The translations under genes were made by a program, and so were the position numbers. The notes under the pieces were generated by a model, which was not told where the DNA came from, searched no databases, and saw only the letters and a list, made by a program, of their open reading frames with translations. DNA of 8,686 bases. Origin: Acidobacteriota bacterium. Its GTDB lineage: Bacteria > Acidobacteriota > Terriglobia > Terriglobales > Acidobacteriaceae. Of the stretch, positions 1 through 8,478 are shown piece by piece (positions within the stretch are counted from its first letter, which is position 1; every line of letters begins with the position of its first letter). The DNA is taken from assembly GCA_021781255.1 (NCBI GenBank), contig JAJXXG010000572.1:1-8686 (forward strand), in the 5' to 3' direction.

Positions 1-280
1 TGCGAGACATTCTGGGGGACTTCGCCCAAAACAGAATAGCATAGAAATGTTGTTAAGTGAACAGTATTGCCGCTAGCTGGTCTATTTCCTACCGGTTGTC
101 GAAGAGCTGCAACTTCAACATCTGCCGGAAAGGTACCTGGAGTACCCCAGGCTGAAGCTGCGCAAACTATCGACCTGATGCTCAGAAAAAGACGCTTCTG
201 GTGATCGGTAACAAGATGGAGTTCTGATAGCGCTCAAGAACACTGCTTGCTCAGGGGATTCCTGGACTAAACTAGTGGTC
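1..280. other. Leader region without a supported gene
   Basis: I find no coding region I can support here. A + strand frame is open for only 33 codons (77-175, ending in TGA), is rich in Leu/Glu/Arg and matches nothing I recognise; it could be a gene scrap. Two small inverted repeats are visible. ATTCTG (9-14) pairs with CAGAAT (32-37), with an inner GGG/CCC pairing, and CCTGG (136-140) pairs with CCAGG (147-151). Neither is followed by a T-run, so I do not call a terminator. I also see no convincing -35/-10 pair for the lipoprotein gene. Confidence 0.5.
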
Positions 281-679
281 ATGCGCATTCATGTTGCAAT
301 TGTGGGCCTCCTCGCCGGTTATCTGATGTTTTGCGGGTGCACGCAAAAGCGACCGCCCCAGCAAGAAAGCAACTCGACTCAGACTGACGTCCGATCCGTT
401 GGCCCAACTCTCATCAAGCTCTATCCTGATGAAACCATAGCAGGCCACGCATTCAATCGACAGGCCAATGGCAGCTCAGCATTGGCCGCCGCAACGCAGA
501 ATGCCAAGAACAACACGGCTATCATTTTCGACGGCCAACGACTGGAAACCGTGTTCGGTGGGGAATCCCTACTGACCGCGGTGGTGCCACCGGCACTTTA
601 TGCAAGGCCTGGAAAACACGAAGTATTTCTTCAAACTGATTCGCACAAGTCAAACGTCCTGTTTTTCGAAGTTCGTTGA
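281..679 (+). CDS. Predicted lipoprotein with IPT/TIG-like domain
   Basis: This encodes a 132-residue protein of unknown function. The N-terminus (MRIH, then about 13 hydrophobic residues, then FCGC) looks like a type II signal peptide. Cys20, preceded by Gly, is the likely lipidated residue, although Phe at -3 is not ideal. A polar linker rich in Gln, Ser and Thr follows (about 21-41). Residues 42-132 form one compact domain with an IPT/TIG-like pattern: a Pro-rich start, an AGxxFN turn, an FDG hairpin and a final alternating strand ending FFEV. Residues 58-132 align without gaps to the last 75 residues or so of the large glycosyltransferase encoded nearby on the other strand, with 31 identities. 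IPT/TIG domains are immunoglobulin-like folds that usually mediate binding, so a structural or docking role at the envelope is an inference. The start could also be GTG at 275; ATG 281 was chosen because it gives a cleaner signal peptide. No strong Shine-Dalgarno sequence is visible for either start. Confidence 0.72.
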   Translation: MRIHVAIVGLLAGYLMFCGCTQKRPPQQESNSTQTDVRSVGPTLIKLYPDETIAGHAFNRQANGSSALAAATQNAKNNTAIIFDGQRLETVFGGESLLTAVVPPALYARPGKHEVFLQTDSHKSNVLFFEVR

Positions 680-690
680 TGCTGTCAAGA

Positions 691-1644
691 TTAGCCAAAA
701 ATACCAAAAAATGTTTCCGGGTGGAGGTAATTTGTTTCTAAATAGTGGCAATCAAGCTCCCAGATCCAGTTAAGAACTGCTTGATCGAGTGACTCACGAA
801 GATCGTAATTCGGGCCGTACATCGTATCAAAGAACCTTCTCGATAGACTAAAGTAGGGAACGAACTGCCTCCTCACAAACATGGAATTCAAAATAGGAAT
901 AATGTCCTCTGACCGGATACATTCCATCGATCCTGCGCTCGTGTCCATTTCCCAGACCTCCTCGTCTATGCGACAGGTATCATACGCGGTGTGATTTATA
1001 CGGAAACGCGGAGGCAGTGTGCGGAAAAGTGCTCGCACAACTTCCCTTGTCTTTGGCCACATTAGATACCCGTTCCTCGTAGACACATCTACGGTTATGA
1101 GTTCTCCTCCGTTCCGGATGGTCCGGCGGATCTGTTTCGCGAGGCGCTCCAGTTCAAGCACGTGGTGAAGTGAAGCGTGGCAGAACACGACATCGAAGCT
1201 CGCGGCATCCAAATCGATCGTGTTCAGGTCGCCGATGTGGAAATCTACGCAGAGGCCTTCCTGGTCGGCGCGGTCCTGGCCGAGTTGAACGAGGCTGGGA
1301 TTCAGATCAACACAGGTTATTTTTGAATCCTTCGCCTCTCGGGCCAACGACAGTTCGATGCCCCCAGGACCCGAGCCAAGCGAGAGCATTCGGACGCCGG
1401 GTGAATGCTGTAAACGGCGCAATACGTGCCCCATCAAGTCCGATCCCGTCAATCCCCGAACGACTGCGGCGGCCCGTGTTTCGATCTCAACCCACGATTG
1501 GGGCACCGGTTGCTGCAACTCCTCTCGGGCGCTCTGCCCTCTTTCGCTCTGATCCTCAATGAAGATCTGATTATAGTGCTCGATTTCTTCGTGAGTCAGT
1601 CTCTGATATTCAAGGCCTTCAGGCCTGAGATCTATTGGTCGCAT
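691..1644 (-). CDS. Class I SAM-dependent methyltransferase
   Basis: This encodes a 317-residue protein that should transfer a methyl group from S-adenosylmethionine to an unknown acceptor. The Rossmann-fold motifs are clear: motif I LSLGSGPGGIEL at about 87-98, the acidic post-I strand CVDLNPSLV at about 111-119, the GD-containing loop near 138, and FDVVFCHASLHHV at about 150-162 (motif IV region). The C-terminal ~150 residues are rich in Arg, Tyr, Phe and Trp and probably form the acceptor site. The gene lies directly downstream of the large glycosyltransferase gene and is surely co-transcribed with it, which suggests a sugar or glycan-lipid substrate; that role is inferred. I chose ATG at 1644 because a GGAG sits 6 nt upstream. 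A longer reading from TTG at 1665 (324 residues) would overlap the upstream stop as TTGA but has a poor ribosome binding site. It is distinct from the methyltransferase domain at the N-terminus of the preceding protein. Confidence 0.88.
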   Translation of the reverse strand: MRPIDLRPEGLEYQRLTHEEIEHYNQIFIEDQSERGQSAREELQQPVPQSWVEIETRAAAVVRGLTGSDLMGHVLRRLQHSPGVRMLSLGSGPGGIELSLAREAKDSKITCVDLNPSLVQLGQDRADQEGLCVDFHIGDLNTIDLDAASFDVVFCHASLHHVLELERLAKQIRRTIRNGGELITVDVSTRNGYLMWPKTREVVRALFRTLPPRFRINHTAYDTCRIDEEVWEMDTSAGSMECIRSEDIIPILNSMFVRRQFVPYFSLSRRFFDTMYGPNYDLRESLDQAVLNWIWELDCHYLETNYLHPETFFGIFG

Positions 1645-1650
1645 CAACGA

Positions 1651-1654
1651 CTCC
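1651..1654 (-). promoter_or_regulatory. Shine-Dalgarno site for the methyltransferase
   Basis: On the minus strand the sequence reads GGAG, six nucleotides before ATG at 1644 and inside the 17-nt gap after the upstream stop codon (1662-1664). It decides the start in favour of ATG 1644 over TTG 1665, and it is the clearest ribosome binding site I see in the window. Confidence 0.6.
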
Positions 1655-1661
1655 AACCGAG

Positions 1662-4600
1662 TCAATCTTCAACTTGAAACAACAGGGTATCCGATTCACC
1701 CTGATCGTTGACAAGAGATACCGGAATCCGGCGCGGAATACGATTAAAGTGGTCAGGCAGCTCAGCACTTAGCAGGAAGGAATTGCCACAAGCCGTCTGG
1801 AGCAGTTGCCCATCGAACCGAATCACCGTACCCGGGCTAGCGTTTTCACACTCCGCAACGAGAGCAGAACACCCATTCGGTTGAAGATTGATGGGTTGCC
1901 CGATGGACGTGCGAGAGGGGAACAGGTGCTTCAGGATCAGACGAGGAGTGCGCTGTGACACCAATTCCGGGCTTCCGAAGAATTCGGAGAGCGGAATCCT
2001 GTCGCCTTCGCGCAGAGGCGGTACACCGGCCCTGATCTTGTGGTTGATCCAGGTTTTCTTCCACTTCGACTCGAAGTACTTGCGGTTCTTCTCAAAAAGG
2101 GCCAAGACTTGAGCGGAGTCGATCTTCCTAAACGAACCATTGCCGAAGTGATGAATGAAACAGTCCTCCACCACAAGGATTCTGAACCCAGCCATTCGGA
2201 CCCGAATACAATAATCATCGTCTTCAAACATGCCGACACCGAAACTCTCGTCCAGATCGCCAACCTGGCTCCAAACTCTGCGCGGCACGGCAGCACAAAG
2301 AAAGGGCACGACATCCAACTCCTGTGTCCTGTGGAAATCCGTCGAAACACGCTCCAGAGCGAAACGGTCCATTTCAGCCAGCGTTCTGTATCCAGTTTGA
2401 ATTCGTGTTTCGTTACCCGAAAAATTCGTTACTGGTGCTGTGATACCAACCTTGTCATTCTGCGCAAGCGGAAATAATAAGCGTCCCAGCCAACCCCACG
2501 TAACGACGGTATCCACGTTCAGAAATACGAAAAACTCACCCCGAGCTTGCCCTGCAGCAATGTTGTTTGCTGCGGCAAAACCGCGATTCTCTTTTAGCAG
2601 GGTGATACGGAGTTGCGGGAATGTATTCCGGTACTCATCCAACACTCGCTGAGAGCCATCAGTCGAGCAGTTATCTACCAAGACCAATTCATAATTCGGA
2701 TAAGCTGTGTTTCGACGGACGGAATCGAGAAATGGACCGAGAAATTCCACAGAGTTGAAGGAGACAGCCAGGATGGAGACCAAGGGGTAGGCGCTTGTGA
2801 GTGATTCTTCAATGGCATCAACCCGTCGTCTCCAACAGTTCACTTCAGCGTAAGCAATTCGCTTGGCTCTGATCTGAGGACTCGATTCCGCAAGAGCTCG
2901 ATCAAGCTGGCTACTAAACTCCGCGGCGGTCTCACCAAAGTAAAGAAGATCACCGTGATCGAGGACCTCTGGCAGCGGCGTGGCGATAATCGGTTTGCCC
3001 TGACTGAGGTATTCGTACACCTTCACAGGGTCCACTGATTTAGTTAGTCGATTTTGCACAAAAGGGAACAGGCAAGCATCGAAACCGCGAAGGTATGATG
3101 GGATCAGACGATAGTGCTTCTCTCCGAGCATTTGCACGTTCGCTAAGCTTCGCAGTCGCGATACATCGCAGCCGTGCACTTCCCCGATGATCACAAAAGT
3201 ATAGTTCGGCCTCGATTCGGCCAACTCGGTCATCAACTTCACATCCACCCAATCGGCGATCGCTCCGTAGTAACCAATAACCGGTTTCACAAGGTCTTGC
3301 AAGAGCAGGCTCGCAGGCGCGTTCTGAAAGAACTCGAAATCCGCTCCGTTTCGGACCCGCAGGACTGGCCGGCCGCTTTCTTCATGCAGGCGCCGCTCTA
3401 GTTCCGAGGACGTTGCGATCAGCACATCGCTCTCCTCGGCTAACAATTGCTCCTGTTGCAGGCTGAAGTCTGAGATTCGAGGTTCAGCCGTCCAACTTCG
3501 CCAGTCATCCATGCAGTCGTAGACGATTCGCGCGCCGAGTTGCTCTCGAAGTTCGAGCGCGACCTTCCTCCAGAATGGAAACTGAACGAGGACAATCGTT
3601 TCGCCCAATCCCGCGGCGCGATAGAGTGAGACGATTGAATTAGCCAAGTCATGAGCACGTTCGGCATCCAACGGGTCGCTGTAGATCCGCAACTGCGGCC
3701 CACTTAGCCGTAGCTCATAGAGATTCTCTCTCAAGGGGACCGTTTCAAACTCACGTTCGGACGACGGGCCCACGAAACGCGAAGGGCTAACCCAGAATAC
3801 CCGATGCCCGGCATTGGCAAAGCCCGAGGCGAGTTGTTGAGGGCGCTGGAACCGAAACTCGAAGTCGAAAACTGGGAGCACGACAATGTCTGTCTTGGCG
3901 GTTGTGTGGTTAGGCACCCCACAAGGCACGTGTTCACTAGGTTTGTCGCTGGGCCCGGACCAGTGGTCCCAGATGCTGGGCAGCCGCACATCAAATTTCG
4001 AGAGGTTGTCGCGCCTAAACAACAGTTCCGATGGCACAAGAAGACTGGCCAGCTTACCTCGGAGCCCTTGGCGTGTCCACAGCGTATAGGCCTTGCGAAT
4101 TGCCAACATCACCTGCCACGCCCGCTGTCCTCTCAGGCTGGCCAATGCCGATTCCAAGTCGCGCTCAAAAGCGACTCCTGCCTTGAGTAATCCTTCCTTG
4201 AGAGCAGCGTACCTTTGAGAGAGCTCACGAACCTGAGCCTTCGTAGACTCGATATGCCGGTCCCTCTCAATGAGCGCCTTCTCGGCCAAGGTCGCGTTTC
4301 GCTCCAGCTTAGCGGCCTCGTCAGTTAGGTCCGCGATACGCTCGTTGCCGACCGTGAGTTCACGCTGCAGGTTCTCAACTTGACGGAGCGAGGCTGCATG
4401 GGCTGTTCGAATTTCTTCAAGCTGAGCTTCGATGCTTTGAATTCGCTCAAGGAGCCGGCGGTTCTCGTTACTTGCGATTGTGAGCGAAACGCCAAACGCC
4501 TGAAGCTCCTGGGCGTTGCCGGAGATCGCGGTCCGAGCAGTGGTGAGATCTTTCTTAGACTCAGCCAAGCTTAGGGAGGGCGACTCATTTGCCGATTGCA

Positions 4601-5825
4601 GGGCAGCCAAGCCACTAGCTGTAGAACTCGGCGCGTTCTCCAGCCGCAGTTTGTCATCACAAAGCTCACGGACCTGGGCCTCGTAGCGCTCTCGCTGATC
4701 GGAGAGCCTATCGGCTACATCGCCGGTCAGTTCAAGTCGAGCGCCAAGACGTTGACGTTCCACCTGTAGCTCCGAAGCCTGTAAAGAAATCGAGTTCAGT
4801 ACCGAGATGAGCGAGCGCCTTTCTTGAGTAGCTGCCGAACGCTCTTCAAGGAACTTTTGGACAATGGAGTTTTCTGACACTTCACTCTGGCGGACTCTAT
4901 CCCGAAGGCTCTTAATCTCTACATTCTTCTGAATGACGGCCGCAAGAGCATCGGCAAGCGCCGCGGTAATGATGTCAGATTCCACTCGATCTTCAGATTC
5001 GAACATCCAACCAGGCGAGGCATCTTCTGAGCGGACACTACCTAGGGCAGCCACCATGTATGCTTTTTGCCGTAGATCGACTACAGGAGCTTTATGGATG
5101 GTCAGGAGAAAGTCCCGCAAACTCGGCGAGTCGCCTGTGACTTCTTTGATGAACGACTCGGTCCAATTCAGTCCCAGATATCCAAGGCCCAAATACTTGA
5201 CACCAGCAGCTTCGAAAACCTTGCGCAGCCCGCTGGCAGGTACTTCTTTGCCCCACGGCCATTCAGCGGAGGCTGCGCGTTTGAGCCTCCAGATCCAGTA
5301 CCAGTAACAGTCGCGATTGGGAAGAAGTACGAGGACATACCGACGGCTTCTTCTTGCCATGCCACGCAGTAGCTGCGCCTGTTGCGCCACGGTATAATGC
5401 TCCAACACGCCCGCATTGAAGACAATATCAAACTCGGCTTGGCAAGGCGCTTCGATGTCAGACAGGATAAACTGAGCGGCGACGCCTGCGCGGTCAAAAA
5501 CCCGCTTGGCATATCGGAGTGCCTCCTCGGAGAAATCGAGAATGCTTGTCGAAAACAGACCGGTTCGGGCGAGGGCTAGACTTTGCCAGCCTCCTCCCGA
5601 GCCAGCTTCCAGGGTTCGCCCCCCTTCAGGAAGGAGATCTGAAATTCGTCCCACAAGTTCAGCATTGAACAGGCGGGTGTCTTCGTCCTCTTCAACGAGT
5701 TCCATCCCAGCATAGTAGGCATCCCACTTGCGCTGCTCCGCCGCTTTCGTTTCTGTGGGTGGGGAGTCCCTGGCAGCCAGATCAAGTCTTGTAGACGTTA
5801 TTAGCCCGCTTCCTGTGGTGTCCAT
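1662..5825 (-). CDS. Giant methyltransferase-coiled coil-GT4-GT2-IPT fusion
   Basis: This encodes 1387 residues counted from ATG 5825. Domains in order: (1) class I SAM methyltransferase, about 30-225, with motif I TLEAGSGGGWQS (71-82), LDFSEEAL (96-103) and FDIVFNAGVLEHY (132-144). (2) A long Glu/Arg/Leu/Gln-rich coiled coil, about 288-570. (3) A GT-B fold GT4-type glycosyltransferase, about 644-1005, with RFQRPQQL (658-665), YDCMDDW (769-775), NGADFEFF (826-833) and VYEYLSQGKPII (936-947); the first Glu of the usual EX7E motif appears to be Ser. (4) A GT-A fold GT2-type glycosyltransferase, about 1013-1265, with VDNCSTDGS (1050-1058), ENRGFAAANN (1079-1088), FLNVDT (1101-1106, the metal-binding DxD equivalent), FEDDDY (1200-1205, catalytic base region) and HHFGNGSF (1225-1232). 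(5) An IPT/TIG-like tail, about 1293-1387. There is no signal peptide or membrane helix, so it is probably cytoplasmic, building an O-antigen, capsule or similar glycan. The frame also opens from TTG 5900 (1412 residues), but a TATAAT box lies inside that extension, so I prefer ATG 5825. The acceptor and sugars cannot be read from the sequence. Confidence 0.88.
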   Translation of the reverse strand: MDTTGSGLITSTRLDLAARDSPPTETKAAEQRKWDAYYAGMELVEEDEDTRLFNAELVGRISDLLPEGGRTLEAGSGGGWQSLALARTGLFSTSILDFSEEALRYAKRVFDRAGVAAQFILSDIEAPCQAEFDIVFNAGVLEHYTVAQQAQLLRGMARRSRRYVLVLLPNRDCYWYWIWRLKRAASAEWPWGKEVPASGLRKVFEAAGVKYLGLGYLGLNWTESFIKEVTGDSPSLRDFLLTIHKAPVVDLRQKAYMVAALGSVRSEDASPGWMFESEDRVESDIITAALADALAAVIQKNVEIKSLRDRVRQSEVSENSIVQKFLEERSAATQERRSLISVLNSISLQASELQVERQRLGARLELTGDVADRLSDQRERYEAQVRELCDDKLRLENAPSSTASGLAALQSANESPSLSLAESKKDLTTARTAISGNAQELQAFGVSLTIASNENRRLLERIQSIEAQLEEIRTAHAASLRQVENLQRELTVGNERIADLTDEAAKLERNATLAEKALIERDRHIESTKAQVRELSQRYAALKEGLLKAGVAFERDLESALASLRGQRAWQVMLAIRKAYTLWTRQGLRGKLASLLVPSELLFRRDNLSKFDVRLPSIWDHWSGPSDKPSEHVPCGVPNHTTAKTDIVVLPVFDFEFRFQRPQQLASGFANAGHRVFWVSPSRFVGPSSEREFETVPLRENLYELRLSGPQLRIYSDPLDAERAHDLANSIVSLYRAAGLGETIVLVQFPFWRKVALELREQLGARIVYDCMDDWRSWTAEPRISDFSLQQEQLLAEESDVLIATSSELERRLHEESGRPVLRVRNGADFEFFQNAPASLLLQDLVKPVIGYYGAIADWVDVKLMTELAESRPNYTFVIIGEVHGCDVSRLRSLANVQMLGEKHYRLIPSYLRGFDACLFPFVQNRLTKSVDPVKVYEYLSQGKPIIATPLPEVLDHGDLLYFGETAAEFSSQLDRALAESSPQIRAKRIAYAEVNCWRRRVDAIEESLTSAYPLVSILAVSFNSVEFLGPFLDSVRRNTAYPNYELVLVDNCSTDGSQRVLDEYRNTFPQLRITLLKENRGFAAANNIAAGQARGEFFVFLNVDTVVTWGWLGRLLFPLAQNDKVGITAPVTNFSGNETRIQTGYRTLAEMDRFALERVSTDFHRTQELDVVPFLCAAVPRRVWSQVGDLDESFGVGMFEDDDYCIRVRMAGFRILVVEDCFIHHFGNGSFRKIDSAQVLALFEKNRKYFESKWKKTWINHKIRAGVPPLREGDRIPLSEFFGSPELVSQRTPRLILKHLFPSRTSIGQPINLQPNGCSALVAECENASPGTVIRFDGQLLQTACGNSFLLSAELPDHFNRIPRRIPVSLVNDQGESDTLLFQVED

Positions 5826-5878: not shown

Positions 5879-5977
5879 AAACGCCCCACTCTCTGAGCAA
5901 GAGATTGAATTAACAGCGAGATTGGAACAAACGTTCAGATAGGCCATAAGCTGCTGAGAGCGGACAAGCCAGTATAG

Positions 5978-6436: not shown

Positions 6437-8004
6437 CTAAAAAGCCGCTTCGGTGCCTGCTTTCAGGTTGGCGAGCCTTGCGATCTGACCGAGTTTCCAT
6501 CGGTCGGGCAGCCGGGCGGCCAGATCACGTTCGGGAACGAGCGGCAGGTTGATGAGCGGTTGGGTGAAGTAGATCTGCGGGTCAATCTCATGCCGCCGGC
6601 AGGGCGAGGTGAGGCTCGCCAGGATGGCCGCCGTGCGGCCGCCGCGTGCGTTGCCGACGAAGAGGCTGTTTTTGCGGTTCAGCACGACACGTTTCATCTC
6701 GCGCTCGCCGATGTTGTTATCGATCGCGACGGCGCCATCGGTACAGAACACATTCAGTTCTTTCCACTGAGCGAGGGCGTAGCCGACGGCCTCTGCCATG
6801 GGATGCTTGGGCAGTAACTGCTTCTTCCAGATCAGTAGCTTCTCGCGCAGCTCGGCCAGCACCGGCGCAGACCGCTCCTGGCGCAGCCGGAGCCGCTCTT
6901 CGACGGAAGCTTCTTTCGCCCTCCCTCTCGACCACATACAGTGCGCGCACCAATGCGGTCGCTTCCCGCGCGATGTCCGGCGCTGCCTTCTCCGCCTCGA
7001 TGATCTTGTGGCGCAGGTGCGCCCAGCATCCGGCGCGCACAATCCCGTTTCCGGCGACCACGCCGTCATAGCCGGCGTAGCCATCGGCCAGCAGAACCTG
7101 GTTGTAACCCTGCAGAAAATACTTCGGACCGTCCCGGCCTCGGCTCAGCGTAAAGTCGAAGACGTTGTAGGGATGCGCCGCATCGCCCACGTAAACCCAC
7201 ATCCTTGCCTTGGCGCATTTCTCCTTACTGAGCATCGGCAGGATCGTGTCATCGGTCGCCACCACGTGCGAGGCGCGGGCCTGGTCCGCCATCAGGGCAT
7301 AGACCGGCTCGACCCGGTCGGCTACGTCCCCGCACCAGACCGACTGCGTGGCCCGCGAGATCTCGAACCCCTGCCGGGTGAAGATGTCTTCCAGCCGGTA
7401 GAGAGGAAGATAGTCGCCGAACTTACTGGTCACGGTGTAGCTGAGCAGACCCGGTCCGGCCAGTCCCTTCTCGATCGCCGTCTCCGGCTTGGCCGCCGCT
7501 TCGATGCACGGGTTCTCGCCGCTGGTCTCGCAAACCGGGCAGGCATACTTCTTGCGCACATGATGGATGCGCTCGAAGCGCCCCGGAATATACTCGATCT
7601 GCCAGCTCTCCTGCAGGCCAATCAACTGGCGCTCGGCGCCGCAGCCCGGGCAGGCCCGCTCGGCGCCATGCAACTCGTACACCTCGGTAGTGACCGGGAG
7701 GTTGTGGAAGTTCGCCAGATGGCGGCGGCCCTTGCGCCGGCGGACCCGCCTCAGTTTTTCTTCCGGTTCGGCCTGCGCGGGAACATCGTCCAGGTGGACC
7801 GGCTTGTGATCGAGCGACTCGGGCGTTGCTGAGCAGTAACTGGGCCAGTTCCCCCGCCGTCCGCAGCCGGTCGGCCCGGGGACCGTGATACCACTTCTTG
7901 TAGCGGGCCAGCTCGACCTGCAAGCGCAGATTCTCGATGTGCAGGTCCTCGGCCCGCCGCTGTTGTTCCAGGGCCCGCTGCTTTTCAGCGTCGCGCTCAC
8001 ACGT
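6437..8004 (-). mobile_element. IS66-family element remnant
   Basis: The span covers the recognisable part of an IS66-family insertion sequence, represented only by its large transposase gene. No tnpA or tnpB accessory genes are visible upstream of it in the minus-strand sense; the sequence beyond 8004 belongs to an unrelated + strand gene. I could not identify terminal inverted repeats (IS66 ends commonly begin GTAAGCG) or a target duplication, so the exact element limits are unknown. The real left end may extend below 6437 into the 6250-6436 region. Confidence 0.8.
6437..8004 (-). pseudogene. tnpC: IS66 transposase TnpC, frameshifted and 5'-truncated
   Basis: This is a DDE transposase spread over three frames. 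Frame 1 (8004 to about 7823) encodes the N-terminal helix with LRLQVELARYKKWYHGPRADRL and LAQLLLSNA. Frame 2 (about 7821 to 6921) holds LDHKPVHLDDVPAQAEPEE, the zinc-finger cysteines CPGC and CPVC, the first catalytic Asp in VVATDDT (near 7253) and the second in LLADGYAGY (near 7085). Frame 3 (6919 to 6437) holds KEASVEERLRLRQERSAP, the catalytic Glu in NNIGER (near 6706) and the C-terminal element SCRRHE-like to LPDRWKL. Removing one base from the GGG at 7821-7823 and one from the CCC at 6919-6921 (both + strand) restores one continuous reading frame. No ATG or GTG exists between the in-frame TAG (8005-8007) and the conserved N-terminus, so the start has been lost. The protein should be inactive as it stands, unless the frameshifts are sequencing errors. 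Confidence 0.85.
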
Positions 8005-8031
8005 CTAACACGCCAACTCTGGTGCGACGCA

Positions 8032-8478
8032 ATGCGCCGACGTGAGAAAGCTCCGGAACCCAAAGTCCCGGAACCACAGAACGTCTGCAGGACCTGCGGA
8101 GCAGATATCTCAAAGCGCAAGAGTTATTGCAGCAAATGTGCCATGGCCGCCATCAAGAGGACCATCATCGTTGCTGCTCACGAAGGACGCAAAGCCTCAC
8201 AAGGGCCAAGTGCGCAGAAGCGCCGACGAGAGACCGGTAGACGCCAATGGGAGGCATATCAGGCGTGGAACCCAGCAGAGCTTCCAAAATGGCTGACTAA
8301 CGACGTCTACTTGAGCCAGTTACAGCTCAGGCTGGCCGGATTCACGAGACCCGCGATAGCGGCAGTCATGGGCGTGACAACTGTTTATGCGGGTGAGGTC
8401 CGGAACGGCAACTGCATTCCGCATCAACGTCATTGGCAAAAGCTGGCCAACCTTGTCGGCGTCACAGCGTCAGGATGA
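8032..8478 (+). CDS. Small zinc-ribbon / HTH-like protein, possibly truncated
   Basis: This encodes a 148-residue basic protein of unknown function. Residues 19-36 contain CRTCG and YCSKC (Cys19, Cys22, Cys33, Cys36), a compact zinc-ribbon. A basic stretch (about 39-72) follows, then WNPAELPKWLT (79-89), and then a region (about 90-144) that reads as a helix-turn-helix: a helix around TRPAIAAVMGV, a VYAGEVRNG recognition-type helix, and PHQRHWQKLANLVGV. Together they suggest nucleic-acid binding. The frame is open upstream of ATG 8032 through LTRQLWCDA to the IS66 junction near 8005 and even across it, and there is no good ribosome binding site, so ATG 8032 may not be the original start. The gene may be the tail of a longer protein cut by the IS66 event. 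I have an unverified impression that similar tails occur both alone and fused to larger proteins (possibly Cas1-type); nothing else CRISPR-like is present here. Confidence 0.6.
   Translation: MRRREKAPEPKVPEPQNVCRTCGADISKRKSYCSKCAMAAIKRTIIVAAHEGRKASQGPSAQKRRRETGRRQWEAYQAWNPAELPKWLTNDVYLSQLQLRLAGFTRPAIAAVMGVTTVYAGEVRNGNCIPHQRHWQKLANLVGVTASG

Follow-up and report, generated by a model that had tools for sequence, protein, structure and literature searches.

A methyltransferase, a helical rod and two glycosyltransferases in one acidobacterial chain: a candidate capping-type glycan synthase whose relatives carry different heads

Could a single polypeptide extend a glycan, measure its length and cap it? 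The question is raised by a long reading frame in an 8,686-nucleotide stretch of DNA from an Acidobacteriota bacterium (contig JAJXXG010000572.1 of assembly GCA_021781255.1; the whole stretch is called the window here), in which an earlier note, made from the letters alone, had seen a possible self-contained glycan synthase with a built-in ruler. One intact frame encodes, in this order, a methyltransferase, two long helices, a GT4-type and a GT2-type glycosyltransferase (GT) domain and an immunoglobulin (Ig)/TIG-like tail, which we call the synthase. We judge the chance to be slightly better than even that it is a capping-type glycan synthase, cytoplasmic and membrane-associated, which works like the known coiled-coil polymerase-terminators. 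Its parts lie in the window as follows, with residues numbered in the 1412-amino-acid (aa) frame.

1662..5825, minus strand: whole synthase, 1387 aa from the ATG at 5825; its closest relative, in locus L001, is 94% identical and shares the three-gene order
5031..5738, minus strand: N-terminal class I S-adenosylmethionine (SAM) methyltransferase head, residues 55-290, motif LEAGSGGGWQS
4635..4985, minus strand: first long helix of the rod, residues 306-422, predicted by AlphaFold2 and by COILS from 394 on only
4128..4559, minus strand: second long helix of the rod, a predicted coiled coil, residues 448-591 by AlphaFold2 and 471-574 by COILS
3993..4127, minus strand: conserved helical element after the rod, QRAWQVMLAIRKAY..., residues 592-636
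2799..3923, minus strand: GT4-type (GT-B) glycosyltransferase domain, residues 660-1034
2001..2795, minus strand: GT2-type (GT-A) glycosyltransferase domain, residues 1036-1300, from Pfam and conserved residues
1665..1955, minus strand: C-terminal Ig/TIG-like domain, residues 1316-1412, predicted all-beta

The frame runs uninterrupted from a TTG at 5900 to 1662 on the minus strand (1412 aa), with the ATG at 5825 internal to it, and sequence conservation begins only near residue 55. Pfam profiles match Methyltransf_25 at residues 97-184 (1.5e-10), Glyco_trans_1_4 at 890-1003 (2.2e-7) and the GT2 family PF00535 at 1042-1188 (1e-25). Together with the AlphaFold2 model, these bear out the uninterrupted frame and the order of parts read in the earlier note. 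The active-site motifs are kept among relatives, and in the GT2 domain N1128, D1130, E1226-D1229 and H1250-H1251 are unchanged in 20 sequences. Between the window and L001, the ratio of nonsynonymous to synonymous substitution rates (dN/dS) is 0.30 for the whole synthase, 0.21-0.27 for the three catalytic domains and 0.49 for the rod, which is thus under weaker constraint than the domains. The structure-search matches listed were methyltransferase folds only for one model (a) and mostly GT4, plus GT2, for the other (b); WbdD, WbbB and WsaF are not among the matches listed, which excludes nothing. The synthase contains no kinase domain, as the earlier note had also found: the methyltransferase fold reaches about residue 290 and the rod begins at 306. 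A kinase hidden between them, as in Klebsiella O7, was considered and rejected because just some 15 residues separate the two.

The rod had been described as about 280 residues of coiled coil, and this description holds for its helices and only in part for its coil. AlphaFold2 predicts a helix of 117 residues (306-422) and one of 144 (448-591), separated by some 25 residues of low confidence. COILS, run with an approximate matrix and approximate parameters, gives P>0.5 at 394-423 and 471-574, a total of 134 residues in the stretch 300-600; in 200 shuffles of that stretch the mean was 22.6 residues and the maximum 86, so that none reached 134. The coiled-coil and structure predictions proposed in the earlier note as checks therefore came out in favour of a rod, one that is predicted to be long and helical and of which about half is coiled coil by COILS. 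Weak Pfam coil matches to the synthase (HAUS1, 0.0012) were not used.

To place the synthase among its relatives, 7996 candidates were scored, of which 275 matched at E<=1e-10; the set of 121 used here is the query plus the best 120 of the 275 (P0001 and P0002 both being the window's protein). By head, the 121 comprise 60 with a methyltransferase, 41 with a pyruvyltransferase-type PF04230 domain and 20 with another head or none. The PF04230 class was taken from a precomputed Pfam list, with the linker start set at residue 330 for the class; the domain was N-terminal in 3 of 3 checked among the 41, and also in L006, while L002 has another layout. Because of these head classes, we regard the rod-GT4-GT2 chassis as shared and the head as exchanged, and different N-terminal heads on one such chassis appear, from sequence comparison, to be a new observation. 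The architecture that the earlier note had suggested searching for, a methyltransferase before the rod, thus recurs in 60 of the 121, with other heads or none elsewhere. One relative, P0092, has a sulfotransferase match ahead of its methyltransferase.

At least 28 coiled-coil residues were scored in the linker of 55 of 60 methyltransferase-headed sequences, 38 of 41 PF04230-listed ones and 11 of 20 others, and the linkers of the methyltransferase-headed sequences span 42 to 388 residues. Internal repeats occur inside the coil segments of 20 of 198 sequences (query, hits and locus open reading frames, ORFs). Their best offset modulo 7 is 4 in ten, 0 in seven, 1 in two and 2 in one; that is, 0 or 4 in 17 of 20 (binomial p 2.5e-7 against 2/7). 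Offsets of 0 and 4 modulo 7 are spacings that a coiled coil tolerates. When the coil filter was dropped, a repeat was found in 17 of 111 linkers, 14 of them with offset 0 or 4 modulo 7. Register-keeping repeats in related coils are an independent sign that the rod is more than chance. In the coil of L124:11200-14673 (plus strand), tandem repeats have an offset of 46 (46 modulo 7 is 4), and their best stretch agrees at 21 of 21 residues; this may be a naturally lengthened rod.

The element that follows the rod (residues 592-636) is spaced like the SWRxTxPLR sequence before GT4 in other members (L124 has the SWR form). A loose pattern for it matches before GT4 in 72 of the 121 sequences and four times in 143,446 other residues; the match in P0054 is probably due to chance, so at least one such match is among the 72. 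A profile of the QRAW form matches 84 of the 121. The part after the rod was also examined for a strongly amphipathic membrane helix, an idea that was rejected: the best hydrophobic moment there ranks only 99th of 1395 sequence windows, on approximate hydrophobicity scales, and membrane contact of the synthase is thus a guess.

Relatives of the synthase are often encoded beside genes for an exporter. Loci with flanks of up to 10 kb a side were scanned with Wzm, Wzt and rml proteins from two annotated plasmids. An adjacent Wzm and Wzt pair was found in 25 of 77 relative loci (three pairs of which share DNA, L007/L047, L022/L023 and L033/L049, and many of which are shorter than 22 kb), in 5 of 20 further acidobacterial loci (standing for 20 of the 22 matching genomes, G001 and G008 left out; one of the five is a fusion, L171) and in none of 20 control GT4 loci. 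The Fisher p against the controls is 0.001 for the 77 and 0.047 for the 20; the controls are all acidobacterial and the 77 span many phyla, so that the contrast within Acidobacteria is 5 of 20 against 0 of 20. At least three genes for deoxythymidine diphosphate (dTDP)-rhamnose lie in 14 of the 77 loci, and L001 has none.

Several of these loci hold the same parts joined or divided in other ways. In Paraburkholderia fungorum (L124), wzm and wzt are directly followed by a methyltransferase-coil-SWR-GT4-GT2 protein. In Bacillus sp. FJAT-29937 (L034), the gene right after wzm-wzt encodes a methyltransferase that has a short coil and scores 107 bits to a profile made from the window's relatives; it adjoins a GT4-GT2 gene, with rmlACBD downstream. 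L171:9692-12691 (plus strand) encodes a GT4-GT2 protein that ends in an ABC-2 (Wzm-like) permease domain, and a Wzt-like ORF comes after it. As separate observations, L009:8173-12832 (plus strand) holds wzm-wzt, then a methyltransferase, then a protein of 373 aa that has no clear Pfam family and could be a capping partner, and finally GT4-GT2; and Rhodanobacter coil-GT4-GT2 proteins stand behind wzm-wzt at L036:8264-11908 and L044:8381-11905 (both plus strand). The N-terminus of the L036 protein has a sub-threshold sulfotransferase match, which suggests sulfate as a possible cap.

The kind of protein is already known. The earlier note had treated the fusion into one chain as new, and here WsaE, WbbB and ORF6 of Klebsiella pneumoniae O7 are precedents, since each joins termination and polymerisation in one chain. 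WsaE, of the Geobacillus stearothermophilus NRS 2004/3a S-layer glycan, has by its published description two rhamnosyltransferase domains and, at its N-terminus, an O-methyltransferase to which the terminal 2-O-methyl cap is assigned (PMC2943079), and thus resembles the synthase in having an N-terminal methyltransferase and two GT domains in one chain. The two differ in that the term 'coiled-coil' does not occur in the main text of PMC2943079, whereas the synthase has a rod, and in that the WsaE gene overlaps wzm and wzt, whereas no such genes lie by the synthase. WbbB of Klebsiella O12 likewise combines a terminator, a coil, reported to act as a ruler, and two GT modules in one polypeptide, but its terminator is a 3-deoxy-D-manno-oct-2-ulosonic acid (Kdo) transferase and its modules come from GT99, GT102 and GT103 (PMC11231755). 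K. pneumoniae O7 ORF6 shares with the synthase an N-terminal methyltransferase, a central coil, two C-terminal GT modules and a predicted Ig-like domain, which follows the kinase in ORF6 and is C-terminal here; ORF6 differs in its extra kinase domain, its methylphosphate cap and the assignment of both GT modules to GT2 (PMC11231755). In E. coli O9a, WbdD and WbdA also place a methyltransferase at a coiled-coil end and use a two-domain polymerase (PMC3482155), but these are two proteins with a kinase, whereas the synthase is one chain without one; in E. coli O8 a methyltransferase-only homologue is reported to suffice (PMC3482155, PMC11231755). As for the other heads, WbbZ of Klebsiella O1, a separate protein, is described as a pyruvyltransferase: it places a pyruvate at the chain terminus, and in vitro the polymer becomes shorter through its action. 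The PF04230-headed relatives may act likewise. The O1/O2 pathway reportedly does without coil-based length control, and the same source had already proposed pyruvate as a candidate terminator in ruler systems (PMC10629545).

The synthase has the architecture of a polymerase-terminator, with a terminator-type enzyme at one coil end and polymerase-type GT modules at the other. A trait of the ABC transporter-dependent polymerase-terminators (WbdD, WbbB and KpO7 ORF6), Wzm and Wzt in the same locus, is absent from its branch: no such ORF is in the window's list, and nothing on the 14.4-kb L001 contig matched. Because of this, we do not file the synthase in the ABC-dependent class and propose only that it works like its members. 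Our literature search did not come upon a branch that has a partner methyltransferase and a C-terminal Ig/TIG-like tail and lacks a nearby exporter; the design combined with Acidobacteria gave no match, which is not proof of absence, and the search did not cover the coil repeats and the tail domain.

In the proposed mechanism, the GT4 and GT2 domains, towards the C-terminus, would extend a lipid-linked chain, perhaps from dTDP-rhamnose, a donor guessed from genes near some relatives. The rod would hold the methyltransferase up to about 39 nm away if both helices lie along one line, with a rise of 0.15 nm for each of the 261 helical residues. With the methyltransferase kept at a distance, only long chains that reach it would be O-methylated, at the non-reducing end, and the methyl cap would stop growth. 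The donor sugar, cap position, processivity, length control and membrane contact are what we infer here. Such a polymerise-measure-cap machine is favoured, on comparison of related genes, by the exchanged heads, the register-preserving repeats, the Wzm/Wzt linkage and the split and fused versions.

The earlier note's word 'self-contained' was too strong, given the gene next to the synthase.

691..1665, minus strand: second class I SAM methyltransferase gene, whose start codon (TTG) overlaps the synthase gene's stop codon (TGA)

Between the window and L001 its dN/dS is 0.20. Its relatives share contigs with synthase relatives in 8 cases among the 120 matches listed, where about 0.1 would be expected (a shared contig being one of exactly equal size, and the expectation coming from 4 near-matches over 40 other offsets). 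The eight synthase relatives concerned comprise five methyltransferase-headed, two PF04230-listed and one headless. A relative of the second methyltransferase also adjoins a synthase relative in L006 and lies close to one in L017, and in L004 one is fused to the C-terminus of a GT4-GT2 protein. By its distribution this gene is a conserved partner of the synthase, and the synthase is therefore not wholly self-contained.

Several findings weigh against the proposed mechanism. COILS backs the first helix at its end only, and the prolines between the helices (424 and 441) are not present in L001. Fewer than 28 coil residues were scored in 5 of 60 methyltransferase-headed sequences; P0033 and P0026 have linkers of 42-47 residues without a scored coil, P0044 and P0074 are headless, L005 has a head and no scored coil, and the coil of L002:4350-9224 is near the C-terminus. 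L004:11331-14837 (plus strand) has a contrary layout, QRAW-GT4-GT2 with the C-terminal methyltransferase akin to the window's second one. At least three dTDP-rhamnose genes occur in none of the 20 further acidobacterial loci and in one of the 20 controls. The Wzm/Wzt pair is found in none of the six QRAW-element loci (L001, L002, L003, L004, L063 and L064), and Wzt_C (PF14524), the carbohydrate-binding C-terminal domain by which Wzt reads the cap in the known systems, has no match in the L001 genome, a metagenome-assembled genome (MAG) of unstated completeness, with 7 of the 8 genomes searched giving a match. Moreover, WsaE is reported to methylate in vitro independently of chain length (PMC2943079).

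Points of this kind lend themselves to a non-processive multifunctional enzyme, in which each GT adds one sugar, the methyltransferase decorates and the coil only joins protomers or tethers, any polymerisation happening elsewhere, for example by a Wzx/Wzy route. The lack of Wzm/Wzt near the window's branch and the five Wzx-family (PF01943) places in the L001 genome, none of them on the synthase contig C76, would fit such an enzyme, as would linkers of widely differing length, some nearly absent, and GT domains that both match general families holding many single-sugar transferases. However, register-preserving coil repeats are not expected of a mere linker, nor are cap-type heads in front of the rod, as most of the members checked have, and the wider relatives cluster with an exporter used for pre-made chains; we hold this explanation to be possible and, on the whole, doubtful. 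The conserved second methyltransferase bears on another one. Since it is conserved, the glycan may be methylated in two ways, and the head might methylate a sugar in every repeat unit without an end cap, with a rod that positions and sets no length. We find this decidedly unlikely, in that pyruvyltransferase-type and weak sulfotransferase heads take the same place. That the gene is a stranded, non-functional relic in a transposon-rich region would agree with the IS66-type transposase match adjoining it in the window, with transposase-like fragments seen by eye in L001 and with the finding of no wzm, wzt or rml gene on the L001 contig. Yet it is intact in two lineages, its active-site motifs are conserved and the dN/dS values given above for the synthase, its catalytic domains and the partner methyltransferase also speak against a relic, which is highly improbable.

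The C-terminal tail of the capping-type synthase proposed here (residues 1316-1412) has no Pfam match at E<=0.1. It is conserved among relatives, being present in 73 of the 84 QRAW-matching sequences and in 21 of the 30 that have both a QRAW match and a methyltransferase head, and it resembles a weakly TIG-like neighbouring ORF.

275..679, plus strand: convergent ORF, a lipoprotein by eye, whose only recognised domain resembles the synthase tail

The TIG match of this ORF (0.0047) is below the cut-off. Its domain is 42% identical to the tail of its own synthase and 46-48% to the tails of pyruvyltransferase-headed relatives, and these figures do not support its being a recent copy of its own synthase's tail. 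Only the ORF itself was found as a full-length homologue among 20 candidates. The idea that the tail is related to the C-terminal domain of Wzt found no support either, a profile comparison of the tail alignment with 26 Wzt C-terminal pieces giving a probability of 0.2 per cent (E 0.33). L046:14679-15134 (plus strand), in a Geobacteraceae MAG that also has Wzm/Wzt, is a lipoprotein-like ORF with little beyond a tail-type domain, near a split synthase; two unrelated loci thus pair a synthase with a nearby lipoprotein-like ORF of this type. Including L001, non-synthase proteins with a tail-type domain occur in 7 of the 77 loci, 1 of the 20 further ones (L160) and none of the 20 controls, too few for a firm contrast. 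Among them are membrane proteins with a C-terminal tail-type domain and a match to the sulfatase family PF00884 (L014:15092-17704 and L034:16199-18340, plus strand), and polytopic membrane proteins with a C-terminal tail-type domain near synthase relatives (L021:15877-17652, L029:15845-17599 and L075:3-1946, plus strand). These occurrences hint at a glycan-handling domain. A bolder and quite improbable idea is that the branch left the Wzm/Wzt pathway, that the synthase tail now reads the capped chain in place of the exporter's binding domain and that the lipoprotein with the same domain holds that glycan outside the cell; with no exporter reading the cap, heads (methyl, pyruvyl, possibly sulfate) would therefore be freely exchangeable. 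In a milder form, the tail-type domain would be a portable glycan reader common to the synthase, lipoproteins and membrane proteins of these loci.

If the proposal is right, the single-chain polymerise-measure-cap design extends into Acidobacteria-like bacteria, as a modular family in which a rod-and-polymerase chassis takes exchangeable capping heads and coils grow by repeats. What appears to be new is the chassis with different heads, in wider relatives that often lie by Wzm/Wzt exporters and are sometimes tellingly split or fused, and the window's branch, with no exporter nearby, a partner methyltransferase and a tail-type domain on a neighbouring lipoprotein. Natural linkers of such different lengths between alignable enzymes form a ready series in which the effect of rod length on glycan length could be followed, and the branch offers a test of whether capping and export must be coupled.

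On the other side of the synthase, the window has an IS66-family transposase match at 6437-8120 (minus strand). This match is divided between two overlapping frames, 6717-8120 and 6437-7084, so that we take the element to be probably broken. In L001 the same side, upstream of the synthase, is held by a 1082-aa repeat protein (L001:3425-6673, plus strand) with repeats that look NHL-like by eye.

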